Source: an uncultured Mucispirillum sp. (GTDB lineage: Bacteria; Chrysiogenota; Deferribacteres; Deferribacterales; Mucispirillaceae). From it: a stretch of 9,489 bases of DNA. Location of the stretch: the NCBI GenBank assembly GCA_945929285.1, contig CAMEOC010000023.1:1-9489 (forward strand). The letters run 5' to 3'. Under the pieces are notes generated by a model, which made no database searches, was not told where the DNA came from, and saw nothing but the letters and a program-made list of their open reading frames with translations. Shown one piece after another: positions 1,030 through 9,489 of this stretch (the first letter of the stretch is position 1; every line of letters starts with the position of its first letter). The position numbers and the translations under genes are program-made.

Positions 1030-4000
1030 ATGATTAATATCTTTTTTTTATTACTTCATTATGCTTCAAAAGTAAGATTATATAAGAAACTTCCTTACAG
1101 GATTTTTTTGCCATTGATAATTATATATAGGCTTATTACTGGTAAAAAAGATATTCCTTATTTAGAAATTTTTATTACAACAAAATGTAATTTAAAATGT
1201 CTGCATTGTTCTTCGTTACTTAATTATAATGATACCAAAAAACATATTGATAGTAAAGAACTGTTACAGTCTATAAAAAATATTATAAATAAGAGTGATA
1301 GAGTGTATCGCTTCAAACTACATGGAGGAGAAGTTTTATTACATCCTGAGTTAGCAGATATAATTGAATATGTTAACAATGAAAGCAAAATATTATCAGC
1401 TAGAATTACAACTAATGGTTCAATAATACCTTCTGATAATGTGATAAACAGCTTAAAAAAATCAGATAAGTTTAAGGTTCAAATTAGTATATATAAAAAT
1501 ATTATAGATTTATCACAGATTAAGCAGATATTTAAGGATAATAATATTCCTTATATTTTATTAGATAATAATATTTGGTATGATTATGGTCAAGTAGCAT
1601 ATACTGGAAAATCAGCATTTAATACATGTACATCAAAAAAATGTACTTCTTCAATTAATAATAAAATATATATATGTTCAAGGGCTGCAATGGCAGATTA
1701 TCTCGGTTTAGTTGAAGAAACAAATTATGTAAATATTTCTTCATCAGATAATATATCAAAAGATATAAAAATATTGCTAAATACGCCATCTAAAAGCTGT
1801 TTTTATTGTAATGGTACATCTAATATGGTTATTCCTGCTATACAGGATTTAAATATAAAAATTTATGCAGTGATTACTACTAAGAATAGAATATCTTTCT
1901 TCAAAAATGCTTTATATTCAGTTATTAAACAGACCTTTCTTCCTTATCATATTATTGTGGTTTCAGATTCTAATGACAATATAAAAGAACAAGAATATGA
2001 GTTGATTCAAAATATAGGTAATCTTAGTTATATACATAATAAATTTGCTTCCAATTATGCAGGTTCGCTTAATACAGCTGTAGATTTTATTGTGAAAAAA
2101 GAACTTTTTAACAATATTAATAATGCAGATAATATTTATCTAGCTTTTTTAGATGATGATGATACCTGGTGTCCTTCATATATTGAAACTATTAATGTAA
2201 GTTTAATTAATAGACCTGATTTTTTAGTATCAGGCATAAAATATAAAAGAAAAACCGAAACAATAGATTTAAGTATCCCGCAAACATTACATATTAATGA
2301 TTTTTTAAAAGGAAATCCTCATATACAAGGCTATAATACCTTTATAAAATTTTCTACATTACTTAAAGCTGGTGCTTTTGATGAAAATTTAACTTCTTCT
2401 ACTGATAGAGATTTATTTGTAAGAGTAATGATGTTAGAACCTGTTTATAAAATAATAAATCAGTATTTAGTAAATGTTGATGGTGATGACAATAGAGAAA
2501 GAATTACTACAAGCAGTAATAAAGTGATAGGCTTAAAATATTTCTATTATAAATACCACAAATTAATGGATGAGGAAGTAAAAACATATTTTTTTGATAG
2601 AGTTGAATGTCTTTTTGGAATAAAAAAAATAGATATATTACAACCATATTTCAATGATTATGCTGTAGATGAAGATATATCATATAATATAAAATCTAAC
2701 AATGAAATTATTATAGGTTTTACAGTTACATCTAAAATGCTTGGTTTAAGATTATTAAATAATATTATGGAGCAGCATATAGCAAACTTAACTGTCATTA
2801 TTGTTCAAAACTTTATAGAAAGTATACATGAATATGTTGAATTGCTGGAAAATCATAATATTAAATATAAAATATTTGATATTACCAGTGTACAAAATTT
2901 ATTATCAAATGAAAGTAATTTTATATATTTTAATGAGTTAATGAATATTCAAAATATCGTAACAGATATTGCAATATCAAGAAGTATTCTACAGTATTTA
3001 CTATATAAATTTTCTCATAAAGAAAGTATTATAATTGTACTTGATGATGATATGGAGTTTTCATATTTGATAGAAGAGCGTGGTAAAATTTCCAGTCAAA
3101 AAATTAATATAGAAGCTGCAGCGGTTTTTTATAAATATAAATATGATGCAGTAATCGGTAGTTATACACTTGATGCTCCTTTACCAGCATTTTATACTAT
3201 GAGAACTTCTTTGCTTGATTATTTATATGATATATATCCTTGTGATTTTTATTATAAAAATATATTTATTCAGGATAATTATTATTATGACTTATTTGAA
3301 GATAATAGAACTCATTTAGAATTTCCACAGCCATTATATAAAGATAAAAATATTGCTGAAATATTTTCAGGTAAATCATTATCACGCCCGCTTGTGAAAC
3401 AGCATAGTAGTGAAAAAACAGCATTGAATCGTGGTGGAATTACGATTATATATAACAGGAATATGCTTTTACTGCCTAATGTTTCTATAAATATCCATAA
3501 TAAAATAGGTAGAAGAAGCGATTATTTTTGGGTATTAAAAGCTGTTGAACATGGATACTCAGTTTCATCTGTTCCATTATATTTACTTCATAATCGTGAA
3601 ATTACTGAATTTAATATTGATAAAGAATTAGATAAAGTATTAAAAGATTTGCTTGGTTCATCATTTGTAAAGGCTTATTCTGTATCTAATGATAGATATA
3701 AATTTTATGAAAATTTTATTAAGTTCTTTAATAATAGATTATCTCTGTTTATTGCATCATATTTTCGGATAAATGGACTTTTATCTATCATATCAGAACA
3801 TGAATTGATACCAGAAGCTGCTAGTGAGATTACTACTAAAAAACTTAAAACTTTTGTTCAGTTGTGTTTTAAATATTGTAATATTGAAGATATATATGCT
3901 CAGTATGATAAACTTATAAATATCAAAATTAATTTTAATTTAGATTGTTTTTTAAATATACTAAAAGAGTTATTTGGAAAAAATATTTATGTATATTTAG

Positions 4001-6705
4001 GGCATGGCAGTGAAGGTATTGTTTTTACTGATAAAGTATATATTTATAAAATATTCTATGAAGATGTTAAGTTAGATAATACATTAATACAATTAGTATC
4101 ATCTTTTAATAAAATAAAAAATATATCCATATATCATCATAAAAGTCATACTATTATTAAATATCCTTATATTAAAATGGAAAAATATAATGGTGGGTAT
4201 GCAGATAAACTGATAAATTTTATTAATTATTTAAAAGATAATAATATTTATTTAAAAAATATTAAGCCAGATAATTTTATGATATATGGTGATGATGCCA
4301 TATATATTGATTATGGTAAGGATATATTATTAAATAACGGAAACTTTAACTACGGAATTATGTTTGAAAGAATATTTCAGTTAGTAAAGTATGCTTATCT
4401 TGGACCTGATATTTTTAAGCAAATTGTATATATATCACATAAAAAAGAAATATTTAATAACTTATACCATGGGTTAATGTATGGTTATGAAAATATGATG
4501 TCATTATTATATCAAGAATATAATAGAATAGATTTGTTAAAAAATAATATACATATAAAAAATAGTGATATAGTTCTGGATTATGGTGCTGGTAAGTGTA
4601 AACTTGCAAAGTTATTATCAGCATCAGCAAATGATTTTTATGTATATGATATAGATACTGCAGCAGTAAAAAGGTTTCGTAAACAGTCAAATATCTATAC
4701 TGATATTAAACAAATACCTGATAGTATGTTTGATGTTGTTTTATGTAATAGGGTTATATGCTCTATTAATAATGATGAATTAAATACTGTTTTATATAAT
4801 ATCAGCAAATGTTTAAAAATTAATGGCAAGCTTTATTTAAGTATATGTAATCCTTTTTTTAACAGCAAAAATGCAACTTCTGTTCAGTCAGTAGATGGAT
4901 TTGAAGAATATGCGTTTTTTAGCAAATTTGATAAACATATGAAACAAACATCAAATACCAGAGTTGAATATCATAGACCATTTAAATTTTATCAATATAT
5001 TTTGCAAAAATATGGATTTAAAATTAAAAAAACTACAGAGATTGGCGAGTATGTAGATGTTAATACATTGGAAAAGATTGGATTAGAAATAATGTTTACT
5101 TGCACATATATTAAACCAGTAAATATGAAAAGTGACATATCATTACTTATTAAAACAAATCCAATGGAGCATGAGTATATTTATGATAATATCTTTCATA
5201 TTGTTAGTCAGCTTGAAAAAGGATTTATTTTTAAAGAGAAACTTGTTGTCGTAAATGATGTTAATACAAATAGAGTTAGAAGATATGCAGAAGATGATTT
5301 ATCAAAATTGAAGTATATTTTAAATGGCATGAAAACACTTAATTTAATAGATAAAATCATATACGAGAGTGACTATTTGCATTTACAGAAAGATATTTAT
5401 GCAAAATATTTTAACAATACACTTGGAATTAATGTATCACAGAATGGTCAGCCGTTATTTGCTACATTACTGGCATTTGATATGGTTAATACAAAATATT
5501 TATATCAGACTGACTCAGATATAATATTTAATACAGATTACTATACTATGGATAATTTGTATAAAATCATTGAAGAAAATCAAGAAGTGGTGACATTATC
5601 ATTAGGTATAAGTAATTCTATTGTACAAGAGTATGGCAGGCGTTCAGAAGTGAGAACCTGTATGCTTGCTATGGAGCGTTTGACTAGTTTACTACCATTA
5701 GATAATAAATTGGATAAAAATCAGAAATACTGTTTAGCATGGCATAGAGCGCTTGACCAAAAAATAATAAACTCAAGCAAAAGTATCCGTTTAGATGATA
5801 CTTATGGTTTTTTTATACATCCAGAAAATAGTATAAAAGATAATCCTGATTTTATTGGTATAGTAAGAAGTAAAGTTGAGCATGGCTGTATAAATTCTTT
5901 ACAGTATAATAATGTTAATTTATCAGGAACAGTTACTGATTGGATTGAAACAAGCAGTAATGATGTAATATTATATATTAGAGGCAGAAATACTCCAGCT
6001 TATAAATTGAAAAGACTTTTTGAAAGTATTAGAATGCAAAGTTATCAAGATTATCAAATCATTTATGTTGATGATTATTCAGAAAATGAATCTGCAGAAT
6101 ATGCAAAAATTCAATTATTCTATTATCAATACAAACATAAACCTATTATGATTGAAAATAAAACACATAGAGGGGAGTTATATAATTTAGATTTTATGAT
6201 GAAAAATATTATAAACAATCCATCAGCAGTGATAATAAATATTGATAATGATGATTTTTTATTAAACAGTAATGCATTAAATATTATTATGGAAGAATTT
6301 AAGAAAGGTGCAGATTTGACTGTTGGTAATTGTTTTAGAAGCGACAAACCTGCAAAAGAATACAGAGTTACTTCCTTTAAAAATGTCTGGCTTAGAAATG
6401 GTGATAATATCTGGCTTCATCCAAAATGTTTTAAGGCTGAACTTTATAAATATGTAACAGATGATTTTAAGAAGATAGATGGTAACTATATTGATGTAAA
6501 TACTGATTTTGCAGTTATGCTTCCTATGGTAATTAATGCTAAAAAACCAGTATTTATAAATGATATTATTTATTATTTCGAGCCATCAAAAGAAAATCAA
6601 AATAAACAAGGGCAGTATGACGTGTATTATAAGCAGAAGATAAAAAAATATTTATTAGAGCAGGCAAGGAGTATGTATGAGAAAAATCATTTCAGTAATA
6701 GGTGA
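1030..6705 (+). CDS. Giant multidomain radical SAM / glycosyltransferase / kinase-like / methyltransferase protein
   Basis: This encodes 1891 residues with no interruption; AAGGTG lies four bases before the ATG. Apparent domains in order:
- Hydrophobic N-terminus, about 3-36.
- Radical SAM, about 44-262: cluster motif C53-x3-C57-x2-C60, GGE at 99-101, TTNG at 127-130, later cysteines 200, 205, 216, 257 and 260.
- GT2-like glycosyltransferase, about 276-525: DDDD at 375-378 followed by TW, TDRD at 458-461.
- Second GT-A-like domain, about 558-870: DDDMEF at 672-677, GRRSDYFW at 827-834.
- Protein-kinase-like fold, about 985-1130: GHGSEG loop from 991, K1007, IKPDN at 1078-1082, DYG at 1094-1096.
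- Class I SAM methyltransferase, about 1160-1360: VLDYGAG at 1182-1188, acidic YDID at 1206-1209.
- Third GT-A-like domain, about 1368-1635: TDSD at 1494-1497.
- Final GT2 domain, about 1645-1885: DNDD at 1739-1742.
It probably acts in the cytoplasm or at the inner membrane face to build a modified glycan. Domain families are motif-based; order and product are inferred. It ends in TGA directly followed by TAG, overlapping the next gene. Confidence 0.9.
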   Translation: MINIFFLLLHYASKVRLYKKLPYRIFLPLIIIYRLITGKKDIPYLEIFITTKCNLKCLHCSSLLNYNDTKKHIDSKELLQSIKNIINKSDRVYRFKLHGGEVLLHPELADIIEYVNNESKILSARITTNGSIIPSDNVINSLKKSDKFKVQISIYKNIIDLSQIKQIFKDNNIPYILLDNNIWYDYGQVAYTGKSAFNTCTSKKCTSSINNKIYICSRAAMADYLGLVEETNYVNISSSDNISKDIKILLNTPSKSCFYCNGTSNMVIPAIQDLNIKIYAVITTKNRISFFKNALYSVIKQTFLPYHIIVVSDSNDNIKEQEYELIQNIGNLSYIHNKFASNYAGSLNTAVDFIVKKELFNNINNADNIYLAFLDDDDTWCPSYIETINVSLINRPDFLVSGIKYKRKTETIDLSIPQTLHINDFLKGNPHIQGYNTFIKFSTLLKAGAFDENLTSSTDRDLFVRVMMLEPVYKIINQYLVNVDGDDNRERITTSSNKVIGLKYFYYKYHKLMDEEVKTYFFDRVECLFGIKKIDILQPYFNDYAVDEDISYNIKSNNEIIIGFTVTSKMLGLRLLNNIMEQHIANLTVIIVQNFIESIHEYVELLENHNIKYKIFDITSVQNLLSNESNFIYFNELMNIQNIVTDIAISRSILQYLLYKFSHKESIIIVLDDDMEFSYLIEERGKISSQKINIEAAAVFYKYKYDAVIGSYTLDAPLPAFYTMRTSLLDYLYDIYPCDFYYKNIFIQDNYYYDLFEDNRTHLEFPQPLYKDKNIAEIFSGKSLSRPLVKQHSSEKTALNRGGITIIYNRNMLLLPNVSINIHNKIGRRSDYFWVLKAVEHGYSVSSVPLYLLHNREITEFNIDKELDKVLKDLLGSSFVKAYSVSNDRYKFYENFIKFFNNRLSLFIASYFRINGLLSIISEHELIPEAASEITTKKLKTFVQLCFKYCNIEDIYAQYDKLINIKINFNLDCFLNILKELFGKNIYVYLGHGSEGIVFTDKVYIYKIFYEDVKLDNTLIQLVSSFNKIKNISIYHHKSHTIIKYPYIKMEKYNGGYADKLINFINYLKDNNIYLKNIKPDNFMIYGDDAIYIDYGKDILLNNGNFNYGIMFERIFQLVKYAYLGPDIFKQIVYISHKKEIFNNLYHGLMYGYENMMSLLYQEYNRIDLLKNNIHIKNSDIVLDYGAGKCKLAKLLSASANDFYVYDIDTAAVKRFRKQSNIYTDIKQIPDSMFDVVLCNRVICSINNDELNTVLYNISKCLKINGKLYLSICNPFFNSKNATSVQSVDGFEEYAFFSKFDKHMKQTSNTRVEYHRPFKFYQYILQKYGFKIKKTTEIGEYVDVNTLEKIGLEIMFTCTYIKPVNMKSDISLLIKTNPMEHEYIYDNIFHIVSQLEKGFIFKEKLVVVNDVNTNRVRRYAEDDLSKLKYILNGMKTLNLIDKIIYESDYLHLQKDIYAKYFNNTLGINVSQNGQPLFATLLAFDMVNTKYLYQTDSDIIFNTDYYTMDNLYKIIEENQEVVTLSLGISNSIVQEYGRRSEVRTCMLAMERLTSLLPLDNKLDKNQKYCLAWHRALDQKIINSSKSIRLDDTYGFFIHPENSIKDNPDFIGIVRSKVEHGCINSLQYNNVNLSGTVTDWIETSSNDVILYIRGRNTPAYKLKRLFESIRMQSYQDYQIIYVDDYSENESAEYAKIQLFYYQYKHKPIMIENKTHRGELYNLDFMMKNIINNPSAVIINIDNDDFLLNSNALNIIMEEFKKGADLTVGNCFRSDKPAKEYRVTSFKNVWLRNGDNIWLHPKCFKAELYKYVTDDFKKIDGNYIDVNTDFAVMLPMVINAKKPVFINDIIYYFEPSKENQNKQGQYDVYYKQKIKKYLLEQARSMYEKNHFSNR

Positions 6706-7234
6706 TAGCCATGAACTGCAAAAAAAGTCTAATAAACAGCTAGCATTTGAAACAGGGCGGTTACTTATTGATAATAATTATAGAGTTATGACTGGTGGTC
6801 TAGGTGGTATTATGAAAGAAGTATTAGTTGGTGCAAAATCTTCTGCTAATTATAAAGAAGGAGACACAATAGGTATTCTGCCATCATTTGATATTAATAG
6901 TGCAAATGAATATGTAGATATTCCAATAGCTACTGGATTAGATGTTGGTAGAAATCAAATAATTGCTAATGCATCTGCTGTTATAATTATTGGTGGTGGT
7001 GCAGGAACACATGTAGAAGCTGCATTGGCATGGGGGCTTTATAAATTAATTATTGCTTATGGAATGTCTGGCGGCTGTGCTGAATTATTAGCAGGGAAAG
7101 CTTTAGACCATAGAACAAGATATAAAGATATTGTAAAAGATGTTATCTATAATGTGTCAACTCCTGAAGAAATGATAATAACTCTGAACAGTAATCTTAT
7201 TAAATATGTGCGTGTACATCATGGAATAAATTAG
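6677..7234 (+). CDS. SLOG-superfamily nucleotide-binding protein (TIGR00725 / MoCo-carrier-like)
   Basis: This encodes 185 residues. The ATG at 6677 follows AAGGAG (6666-6671) by five bases and overlaps the end of the giant gene by 29 bp in another frame, so translation is probably coupled. Motifs fit the Rossmann-like SLOG fold shared by LOG phosphoribohydrolases, molybdenum-cofactor carrier proteins and the TIGR00725 family: TGGLGGIM at 39-46, GDTIGILP at 62-69, GRN at 91-93, and GGGAGTHVE at 106-114 in the position of the LOG phosphate-binding PGGxGTxxE loop. The exact LOG catalytic motif is altered (GGGAGT for PGGxGT), so a cytokinin-type hydrolase role should not be assumed. Binding of a nucleotide or nucleotide sugar is the safest inference, and would suit its place between a glycosyltransferase gene and a nucleotide-sugar dehydrogenase gene. 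The ligand is unknown. Confidence 0.85.
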   Translation: MRKIISVIGDSHELQKKSNKQLAFETGRLLIDNNYRVMTGGLGGIMKEVLVGAKSSANYKEGDTIGILPSFDINSANEYVDIPIATGLDVGRNQIIANASAVIIIGGGAGTHVEAALAWGLYKLIIAYGMSGGCAELLAGKALDHRTRYKDIVKDVIYNVSTPEEMIITLNSNLIKYVRVHHGIN

Positions 7235-7249
7235 CGAGGTGAGGATAAT

Positions 7250-8017
7250 ATGAAATATAATATAGGGATAGCAGGATTTGGGCATGTTGGCAATGCAATG
7301 AAAAAATTATTTCCAGAGAGTGTTGTATACGATAAAAATAAAAACATAGGAAGTATAAATGAATTAAATAACTGTTATTGTGTATTTATTTGTGTACCTA
7401 CACCACAGGGCAAATCTGGTGAGTGTAATACAACAATAGTTGAAGAATTAATTTCTATGTTAGATGTGGAGTTAATAATTATTCGATCCACTGTTTATGT
7501 TGGTTTTACAGACAAAATGGTTGAAAAGTATAATAAAAATATAGTATTTCAGCCAGAATATTATGGGGAAACAGTTCATCATCCATATGCAGAATTATTG
7601 TCAAGACATTGGATATCTCTAGGCGGCAGTGAAAAGGCTGTAAATATGGCAGTACATGTTTATCAGCAGGTTTATAATTCATCTATAAAAATATATCAAG
7701 ATTCAGCTAAAAATGTTGAGTTTGCAAAATATATGGAAAATGCTTTTTTTGCTGCTAAAGTAACTTTTTGTAATGAAATGTATGATATAGCAGAAAAACT
7801 GGGAGTAAACTATAATAGAGCTAGAGAAATGTGGCTTGCTGATGAACGTATTGGTCCATTTCACACATTTGTATATCCTGAAAATAGAGGCTATGGAGGT
7901 TCTTGTCTTCCAAAAGATATTGCTTCCATAATATATCAGGCAGAAGAATATGGTTATGAACCAGCATTTTTAAAAAGTGTTGTAGAAAAGAATAATATGT
8001 ATAAACAATCTAGATAG
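7250..8017 (+). CDS. Short UDP-glucose/GDP-mannose dehydrogenase-family protein
   Basis: This encodes 255 residues, starting 15 bases after the previous stop behind GAGGTGAGG (7236-7244). The N-terminal Rossmann NAD site is GFGHVG (9-14), followed by the family's VPTP (49-52), STVYVGFTD (80-88, equivalent of STVPPGTT) and QPEYYGE (101-107, equivalent of NPEFLREG). The central domain has AKYMENA with the expected Lys160 and Asn164. The catalytic thiol is Cys219 in GYGGSCLPKD (214-223). These enzymes oxidise a nucleotide hexose twice to the uronate using NAD. Usual family members are about 390-450 residues; this one stops at the end of the central helical domain and lacks the C-terminal NDP-sugar-binding domain. 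No remnant of that domain is seen downstream. Because the reading frame is clean and the break is at a domain edge, it looks like a natural short form, possibly acting on an unusual sugar substrate. Confidence 0.9.
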   Translation: MKYNIGIAGFGHVGNAMKKLFPESVVYDKNKNIGSINELNNCYCVFICVPTPQGKSGECNTTIVEELISMLDVELIIIRSTVYVGFTDKMVEKYNKNIVFQPEYYGETVHHPYAELLSRHWISLGGSEKAVNMAVHVYQQVYNSSIKIYQDSAKNVEFAKYMENAFFAAKVTFCNEMYDIAEKLGVNYNRAREMWLADERIGPFHTFVYPENRGYGGSCLPKDIASIIYQAEEYGYEPAFLKSVVEKNNMYKQSR

Positions 8018-8833: not shown

Positions 8834-8977
8834 ATGAGTAAACTAATGTCACCAAAAGACAATGCTGCTAACATTCAAAATCCTAACAAAGGTACAAATG
8901 GAGTGAATAAGCAGTATAGTCAAAATCAAGGTAACAGGGGCAAACAGTTAAACCCTAATCAAAAAGGTAAATCATAA
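8834..8977 (+). CDS. Small Asn/Gln/Lys/Gly-rich hydrophilic protein, function unknown
   Basis: This encodes 47 residues. The ATG at 8834 lies seven bases after a perfect GGAGG (8822-8826). A longer version from GTG 8753 would add 27 mostly hydrophobic residues but has no ribosome site and overlaps the promoter, so I reject it. The product begins MSKLMSPKD and is rich in Asn, Gln, Lys and Gly, with NPNKGTNGVNKQY in the middle and QGNRGKQLNPNQK near the end. It has almost no hydrophobic residues and is probably disordered. I cannot assign a function. A decayed copy lies about 270 bp upstream, and a HicA-like broken gene follows 40 bp downstream, perhaps on the same transcript. Confidence 0.7.
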   Translation: MSKLMSPKDNAANIQNPNKGTNGVNKQYSQNQGNRGKQLNPNQKGKS

Positions 8978-9245: not shown

Positions 9246-9434
9246 ATGGATTGTACTTTTAGATATTTTGAAAGTGCAAAAAGCCGTTATAATAATTTTA
9301 AAAGAGATAAAGAAATTATAAATGAAGATGAATATAATGCTTTTATTTTGCTTTATTTGTCTTTTTGTAGTGAAGATTATAAATTTCGCAAAGATAGTAT
9401 AATGAAATATTCACGATACATCAAATATATATGA
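9246..9434 (+). CDS. Short hypothetical frame running into the right-end repeat
   Basis: This frame has 62 codons, from ATG 9246 to TGA 9432-9434. The product is charged and probably helical, with FESAKSRYNNFKRDKEIINE near its start and FRKDSIMKYSRYIKYI at its end. No Shine-Dalgarno sequence precedes the ATG, and an in-frame stop lies just before it, so it may be a fragment of a larger gene rather than a working one. Its last nine codons lie in the 83-bp repeat. Past the TGA the same frame stays open to TAA 9477-9479. I do not recognise the protein. Confidence 0.3.
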   Translation: MDCTFRYFESAKSRYNNFKRDKEIINEDEYNAFILLYLSFCSEDYKFRKDSIMKYSRYIKYI

Positions 9435-9489
9435 AAATACATAGTTGTAGGTATGCAAAAAAGATATAATTGTATATAATTTTTTTAAA
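9407..9489 (+). repeat. Right-end direct repeat, matching 222-304
   Basis: These 83 bases align without gaps to 222-304 with four mismatches and run to the window edge, so the repeat may continue beyond. The left match starts about 15 bases inside copy 2; the CGAAGAGGGG opening of the left copies is absent here. The two copies are about 9.2 kb apart in the same orientation and bracket the helix-turn-helix pseudogene, the glycan operon and the decaying small genes. Confidence 0.9.

Follow-up and report, generated by a model that had tools for sequence, protein, structure and literature searches.

Does the long reading frame of this locus encode a single protein of seven modules, and what might such a protein make? 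The window (the whole stretch of DNA that was analysed) is an entire contig of 9,489 bases from an incomplete genome (57%). For the RpoB protein of a genome from the same genus, the nearest named relatives are Deferribacterales (Limisalsivibrio, 73%). An earlier note on this DNA had described one uninterrupted gene in which a radical SAM domain, four glycosyltransferase (GT)-like domains, a kinase-like fold and a methyltransferase are joined.

An intact gene of 1891 codons

The gene lies at 1030..6705 (+) as a single uninterrupted ORF of 1891 aa, with an ATG start and no internal stops, and the domain matches along the chain follow the module order described before. All the motifs claimed earlier are located in it: CNLKCLHC (residues 53-60), DDDD (375-378), DDDM (672-675), GHGSEG (991-996), IKPDN (1078-1082), DYG (1094-1096), VLDYGAG (1182-1188), TDSDI (1494-1498) and NIDNDD (1737-1742). 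A database protein, P0001, also has 1891 aa, is 97% identical over 100% of the length and is equally fused; it represents 34 member sequences from 11 contigs, and its domains are PF04055, PF00535 and a methyltransferase.

The rest of the window holds a few other elements. An 83-nt AT-rich repeat is found at 62-144, 222-304 and 9407-9489, i.e. at both contig ends (the outer copies are 95% identical to each other), and the contig probably ends there on account of this repeat, copies or pieces of which are found in nine out of 10 same-genus genomes, its own included. At 396-715, two ORF pieces that overlap but are read in different frames look like a disrupted gene for a regulator or antitoxin of the helix-turn-helix (XRE-type) kind. 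A small ORF of 47 residues, rich in Asn, Gln and Lys, is found at 8834-8977, with GGAGGTGG ahead of it. Rfam gave no matches in the window up to an E-value of 0.5.

Modules of the fused protein

Profile searches block by block, which the earlier note had proposed, recognise the radical SAM domain, two family 2 glycosyltransferases (GT2), the kinase fold and the methyltransferase; GTb is recognised weakly and GTc is not. Across 43 sequences (the window protein and its 42 homologues) the core modules keep their active-site residues almost without change, with the exception of the kinase catalytic Asp.

The radical SAM domain (1147..1839, +) matches PF04055 at residues 48-154 above the cut-off (37 bits versus 29.5), as claimed. 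Its CxxxCxxC motif and four additional cysteines (200, 216, 257 and 260) are invariant in all nine alignment rows, and from these four we infer a Twitch-type auxiliary cluster; the NCBIfam Twitch model NF033640 matches with an E-value of 5.2e-11, yet below its cut-off (42.3 versus 170 bits). In the PDB profile search the best match is 7wzv (6.1e-13), and BtrN (PDB 4m7s/4m7t) matches across the SAM core and the auxiliary region (residues 42-260, E-value 1.3e-6). BtrN acts on a cyclitol, and the match suggests that the radical SAM part may oxidise or remodel a sugar or cyclitol. An identity as moaA was rejected, its score being far below the cut-off (51.9 versus 284 bits).

Pfam Glycos_transf_2 (PF00535) matches two stretches of the chain (90.1 bits versus 23.3), the best of them at residues 280-405; the position of the other was not printed. 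The PF00535 match above cut-off, the DxD motif and the catalytic Asp are found in both GT2a (residues 276-540; 1855..2649, +) and GT2d (residues 1640-1885; 5947..6684, +). In GT2a the motifs are DDDD and TDRD (DxD and catalytic Asp), present in 42 out of 43 sequences, with a gap in the other one. GT2d, to which we assign the second PF00535 stretch, also matches NF050050 (1.9e-8), aligns with GT2a (hhalign Prob 95.9) and keeps its DxD region in 42-43 of the 43 sequences; in a relative, P0024, the best PF00535 stretch falls in this module. An all-against-all profile test of the seven domains gave an E-value of 2.7e-6 for the pair GT2a-GT2d, and the remaining 18 out of 21 pairs have E-values of at least 0.08.

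Of the four GT-like domains claimed earlier, GT2a and GT2d are thus family 2 enzymes, GTb has weak profile support and GTc has motifs only. GTb (residues 556-880; 2695..3669, +) is a divergent GT-A-like module without a Pfam match or a credible PDB match, in which D672/D674 and RRxD are kept in 43/43 sequences; its profile aligns with GT2a at an E-value of 9.2e-5 (probability 59%, 62 columns), or 3.1e-4 when deeper alignments are used (39%, 218 columns), and with GT2d at 1.3e-3 (18%). GTc (residues 1366-1640; 5125..5949, +; motifs TDSDI, WHRALD and FIHPEN) is GT-like by motif only: D1495, D1497, W1571-R1573, D1576 and H1597 are conserved in 43/43, but residues 1360-1640 are not recognised by profile searches, have no credible PDB match and do not qualify as GT2. 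The sole profile sign for GTc is a sub-threshold PF00535 match (E-value 0.0036) in one relative (L040).

The kinase-like domain (residues 955-1150; 3892..4479, +) has the fold that had been proposed for it, without the catalytic residue. A profile of this block built from 28 relatives matches protein kinases in the PDB (958 distinct sequences at an E-value of 1 or less, best 9.2e-7), with the catalytic loop and a DFG-like motif in register; Pfam finds no kinase match in the 1891-aa protein, and a Pkinase match in P0024 is below threshold. The G-loop, the Lys, the catalytic-loop Asn and DxG are present in 43/43 sequences. The Asp of the HRD motif, however, is replaced by Asn (Asn1077 in the window protein; 4258-4260, +) in all 43 core proteins and in all 30 core loci (the two sets may overlap), and therefore the domain is probably a pseudokinase or a nucleotide-binding scaffold. 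Among 120 listed proteins of a second type (see below), 119 have Asn at this position (115 by motif and four by alignment), P0062 being the one with Asp. That the nucleotide-binding residues are kept, and the catalytic Asp almost never, suggests that the domain is conserved as a scaffold or sensor, although some residual kinase activity is conceivable.

The methyltransferase (residues 1155-1365; 4492..5124, +) is of class I and SAM-dependent, in agreement with the earlier description: Methyltransf_11 (PF08241) matches residues 1183-1270 with 34.6 bits (cut-off 21.2), its profile matches PDB 3g5l (7.3e-10), and D1184, G1186 and G1188 of motif I are kept in 43/43 sequences.

A six-module core fused to a radical SAM gene

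The 42 homologues were obtained from 7981 scored candidates. Apart from P0001 they cover 72-86% of the query with 27-42% identity, the coverage starting as a rule at about residue 276 (seen for 14 of them), and P0001 is the only one of the 42 for which a radical SAM domain is listed. Where the relatives seen here carry an annotation, it reads just 'glycosyltransferase' or 'glycosyltransferase family 2 protein'. When genome contigs were scanned, the window protein by itself gave no hits and the family alignment gave 37 loci; IMG/VR contributed two contigs. We defined 30 core loci (the window counted) as those whose ORF clusters as core. What is conserved is a core of six modules (GT2a, GTb, kinase-like domain, methyltransferase, GTc and GT2d), and 27 out of the 30 core ORFs span all six modules: about 65 residues are missing at the start of GT2a in L038, the core of L044 is cut by the contig end, and that of L046 stops after the methyltransferase.

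The seven modules seen by the earlier note are one chain here, but elsewhere the radical SAM part is separate. In six loci (five titled Clostridia and one Candidatus Ornithoclostridium) a radical SAM gene of 276-321 residues is directly upstream of the core: in three of them the ATG of the core comes immediately after the stop codon of the radical SAM gene and in the same frame, and in the other three there is a four-base overlap between the two genes. The corresponding junction in the window, from the C-terminus of the radical SAM part into the N-terminus of the core, is at 1825..1863 (+). As the ends of two genes adjoin in these loci and are continuous in the window, the 1891-aa protein is a fusion of two neighbouring genes. 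Altogether a radical SAM gene or domain is found in eight of the 30 core loci (six upstream, one downstream in L038 and one fused, in the window). The separate genes of the six loci could suggest that the fusion is an artefact of assembly or sequencing. We consider this hardly credible, and rejected it as an explanation of the ORF at 1030-6705, because P0001 is fused in the same way, with the same length and domains, on 11 contigs.

The core loci come from Clostridia, Bacilli, Bacteroidota (Paludibacteraceae), methanogenic archaea, Planctomycetota, Alpha- and Gammaproteobacteria and Sandaracinaceae; they include two near-duplicate pairs (L030/L059 and L025/L031). The core is probably soluble, because 28 out of the 30 cores have no 19-residue segment above the hydropathy limit used. 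Split versions of the modules, for which the earlier note had suggested a search, include more than the radical SAM genes: in L051 and L054 one gene combines SLOG, kinase-like and methyltransferase domains and another GT2a and GTb, and L053 contains the second kind of gene together with a fragment of the first.

Among 59 genomes searched, 48 (the window's own included) have a match at an E-value of 0.001 or less. The full gene is found only in its own genome; the matches in the others are pieces, mostly of radical SAM or GT2. A complete genome of the same genus (G006) has a relic of the gene (L062:9720-10133), in which the radical SAM end is beside the core end, the interior is missing and nucleotide identity is ∼77.5%. 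Neither the window protein on its own nor the second-type protein found a relative in viral contigs, and phage records gave no matches. The earlier note knew of no named system that combines these modules, and a description of the combination was likewise not found in the open-licence PMC literature.

Partner genes

Two genes downstream of the fused gene belong to a recurring gene set. The first, overlapping the end of the 1891-codon gene, encodes a 185-aa SLOG protein (6677..7234, +; LDcluster4, PF18306, 6.2e-28). SLOG is found in 22 of the 30 core loci, as a separate gene in 17 and fused at the C-terminus of the core in five. The Arg and the GGxGTxxE Glu that are typical of LOG are conserved in 17/17 proteins. 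We found no paper on LDcluster4 in the open-licence PMC.

The second gene encodes a short NDP-sugar-dehydrogenase-like protein of 255 aa (7250..8017, +; PF00984/PF03721) and is found in 16 of the 30 core loci. A Lys, an Asn, a Cys and an Asp, which we take to be the catalytic residues of UDP-glucose dehydrogenase, are kept in 17/17. The model match ends at position 296 of 413 and the C-terminal UDP-binding domain is absent (other members are likewise short), so that the substrate may not be a UDP-sugar. Since SLOG is absent from eight of the 30 core loci (among them L044, whose core is cut off by the contig end) and the dehydrogenase from 14, and since radical SAM is found in only eight, the core can probably work without them.

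Other partners are found in fewer loci: an NAD epimerase domain at the N-terminus of P0038 (and of the cores in L026 and L034, judged by length and similarity), a polysaccharide deacetylase in L049 (in L051 below cut-off), a GT11 gene in L051, a GDP-mannose-dehydratase-like gene in L054, a PHP phosphatase-domain family in three loci and a fused histidine-phosphatase domain in L058. Partner family C18, of two methanogens, looks like a histidine phosphatase by motif only, with no Pfam match for the one member scanned. Two partner families, each scanned with one member, were not recognised: C5 (645 aa, e.g. L032:15621-17555, five loci) has no match in Pfam, PADLOC or PDB, and C6 (257 aa, e.g. L032:18844-19614, four loci) has none in Pfam or PADLOC.

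A second cassette type

A second type of cassette, found in Pseudoalteromonas (L061) and Ancylomarina (L050), keeps GT2a, the kinase-like domain and GTb (in this order in Pseudoalteromonas), and its partners are genes for GTP cyclohydrolase II + NADAR (we take NADAR to be COG3236), asparagine synthase and arylamine N-acetyltransferase. The Pseudoalteromonas protein as a query found 317 proteins at an E-value of 1e-3 or less; the 120 that are listed cover 59-100% of the query, and most are unnamed, the named ones being mostly 'glycosyltransferase'. The named relatives (among P0043-P0162) are mostly from marine Gammaproteobacteria, one being plasmid-borne beside tra genes. A rearranged relative on a Salinivibrio plasmid (L060) has a separate GT2 gene and a protein of 1020 aa that combines GT2, kinase-like and GTc-like parts; beside them is a radical SAM gene in convergent orientation, and IS elements are nearby.

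Both cassette types appear to carry a predicted N-glycosidase for a nucleotide-like substrate. By analogy with nucleoside antibiotics, this could mean that the product is a glycan linked to a nucleobase: the N-glycosidase would free a base, the dehydrogenase would provide a uronic acid, the GTs would join the parts, and the radical SAM part and the methyltransferase would tailor the product. The two types share GT2, the kinase-like domain and GTb yet differ in the predicted N-glycosidase, which is SLOG with the LOG-type Arg and Glu in one and GTP cyclohydrolase II + NADAR in the other, the latter found once in the same protein as GT2 domains (P0094). A base-releasing activity on nucleotides has been predicted for SLOG domains (PMC7159879). 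The gene set also parallels that of blasticidin S, for which PMC3715490 describes the joining of free cytosine and UDP-glucuronate by BlsD, with the radical SAM enzyme BlsE acting next; cytosylglucuronate decarboxylase matches the radical SAM part weakly in the PDB profile search (E-value 0.0048). But this is an analogy only. In Vibrio, a fusion of GTP cyclohydrolase II with the same N-glycosidase belongs to the normal riboflavin pathway, as stated in an excerpt of PMC5312566 (such a fusion is noted too in an excerpt of PMC4921024), the closest solved relative of the SLOG protein is a molybdenum-cofactor carrier (PDB 2iz5), and four GT-like modules exceed the needs of a nucleoside. We regard a nucleobase-linked product as quite unlikely. 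A broader proposal, to which we give just as little weight, is that the two types together form an undescribed class of assembly lines, horizontally spread in bacteria and archaea, in which a multi-GT protein scaffolded by a pseudokinase works with either N-glycosidase to make nucleobase-linked glycans; SLOG or GTP cyclohydrolase II + NADAR would then feed in a base or ribosyl unit, and in the lineage of the window a radical SAM tailoring enzyme would have been fused onto the line.

Flanking genes and mobility

From 195 listed flanking ORFs of other loci, 29 were chosen by hand and scanned. Eight of them encode a recombinase, an integrase, a DNA methylase or a restriction-modification function, and five gave no match. 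A Glycos_transf_1 gene flanks L023, an ABC ATPase gene lies ∼7 kb away from the core in L048, and in L034 an EamA-type transporter gene immediately precedes the core; the remaining ORFs are other genes. With seven queries, genes for a recombinase, an integrase or restriction-modification turned up in seven of the 30 core loci. Together with relatives that sit on plasmids next to tra genes or IS elements, and with the two IMG/VR contigs, these genes could indicate a trait of mobile islands that has an unrelated role (e.g. defence or competition between cells) and whose GT core would modify a protein or nucleic acid instead of producing a free glycan. However, the phage records are without matches, and those in PADLOC are partial only (the methyltransferase part matches mad2 with 4.6e-9, and the SLOG gene matches ThsA/STALD with 0.0037); an identity as a defence system was rejected as none of the matches is specific, and we hold the island reading to be very unlikely.

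The flanks also bear on whether the protein is a polymerase-terminator of a surface polysaccharide (of the WbdA/WbdD or O7 ORF6 type), in which polymerisation is the task of the GTs, and the kinase and the methyltransferase add a methyl-phosphate cap to the chain. Several GT modules and a methyltransferase are indeed in one chain here, with a kinase fold and more than one GT2, as in O7 ORF6 according to an excerpt of PMC11231755, and a Glycos_transf_1 gene flanks L023. On the other hand, the catalytic Asp of the kinase is Asn in every core protein, no coiled-coil ruler showed up when the window protein was scanned for heptads in a simple way, and there is no complete export set among the 29 hand-chosen flanking ORFs, the window contig itself being short. 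We regard a polymerase-terminator as unlikely.

A putative oligosaccharide assembly protein

The reading that we prefer, with confidence at about the halfway mark, is that the in-frame fusion of the radical SAM part and the core is a likely soluble 1891-aa machine that builds a short methylated oligosaccharide; it is drawn from domain matches, conserved residues and the partner genes, sugar-modifying ones among them. GT2a, GTb, probably GTc, and GT2d would transfer sugars sequentially onto one acceptor, and the methyltransferase would then methylate the glycan (its target could also be another molecule). The kinase-like domain would serve as a scaffold that binds a nucleotide or a phosphorylated intermediate, rather than phosphorylate, and the radical SAM/Twitch module would oxidise, epimerise or otherwise remodel a sugar position. 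Of the partners, the short dehydrogenase would supply a unit of the uronic-acid type, and the SLOG protein would cut the N-glycosidic bond of a nucleotide, thus supplying a building block. The gene set seems to spread as a compact cassette without a recurring export gene. Several observations count against such an assembly machine: no gene for a carrier lipid or acceptor was identified, an EamA transporter is upstream of the core in L034, GTc has no profile recognition, and GTb has a probability of 39-59%.

The recognised module types are all known. It is their combination and order that define a widespread family, which is also marked by the consistent loss of the kinase Asp and by frequent LOG-like and truncated dehydrogenase neighbours. 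Compact cassettes of this kind in bacteria and methanogens would imply an undescribed glycan or glycoconjugate, and the split and fused versions are natural experiments on which modules act together.

Comparison with known systems

BtrN is a stand-alone chain, whereas the radical SAM module here is fused to a GT core. The SLOG protein has its family match and its Arg and Glu in common with LOG and SLOG LDcluster4, and differs in being tied to a GT core. The dehydrogenase has the N-terminal domain and the central one of the UDP-glucose dehydrogenase family, catalytic residues included, but the 255-aa protein is without the UDP-binding domain of that family. The blasticidin S pathway (BlsD and BlsE) is alike in the supply of a uronic acid, the joining of sugar and base and the action of a radical SAM enzyme on the sugar; the likeness is one of gene content only.

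Two polysaccharide systems combine a kinase, a methyltransferase and several GTs, and both are compared here from excerpts of PMC11231755. WbdD/WbdA (E. coli O9, Klebsiella O3), compared by description only, pairs a kinase and methyltransferase protein with a multi-GT polymerase, and differs in consisting of two proteins with a coiled-coil ruler. The nearest system in print is ORF6 of Klebsiella pneumoniae O7, which shares the methyltransferase, the kinase fold and two GT2 domains. Its order (methyltransferase, kinase, coiled coil, GT2, GT2) differs from that of the core, from which it is set apart by description; it has ABC export genes and a coiled-coil ruler that sets chain length, and its kinase needs the catalytic Asp (D441A abolished the activity), while radical SAM and SLOG, both present here, are not mentioned for it in these excerpts. 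As the Asp is absent and the simple scan showed no coiled coil, we do not class the fused protein with O7 ORF6, but it may work partly like it.
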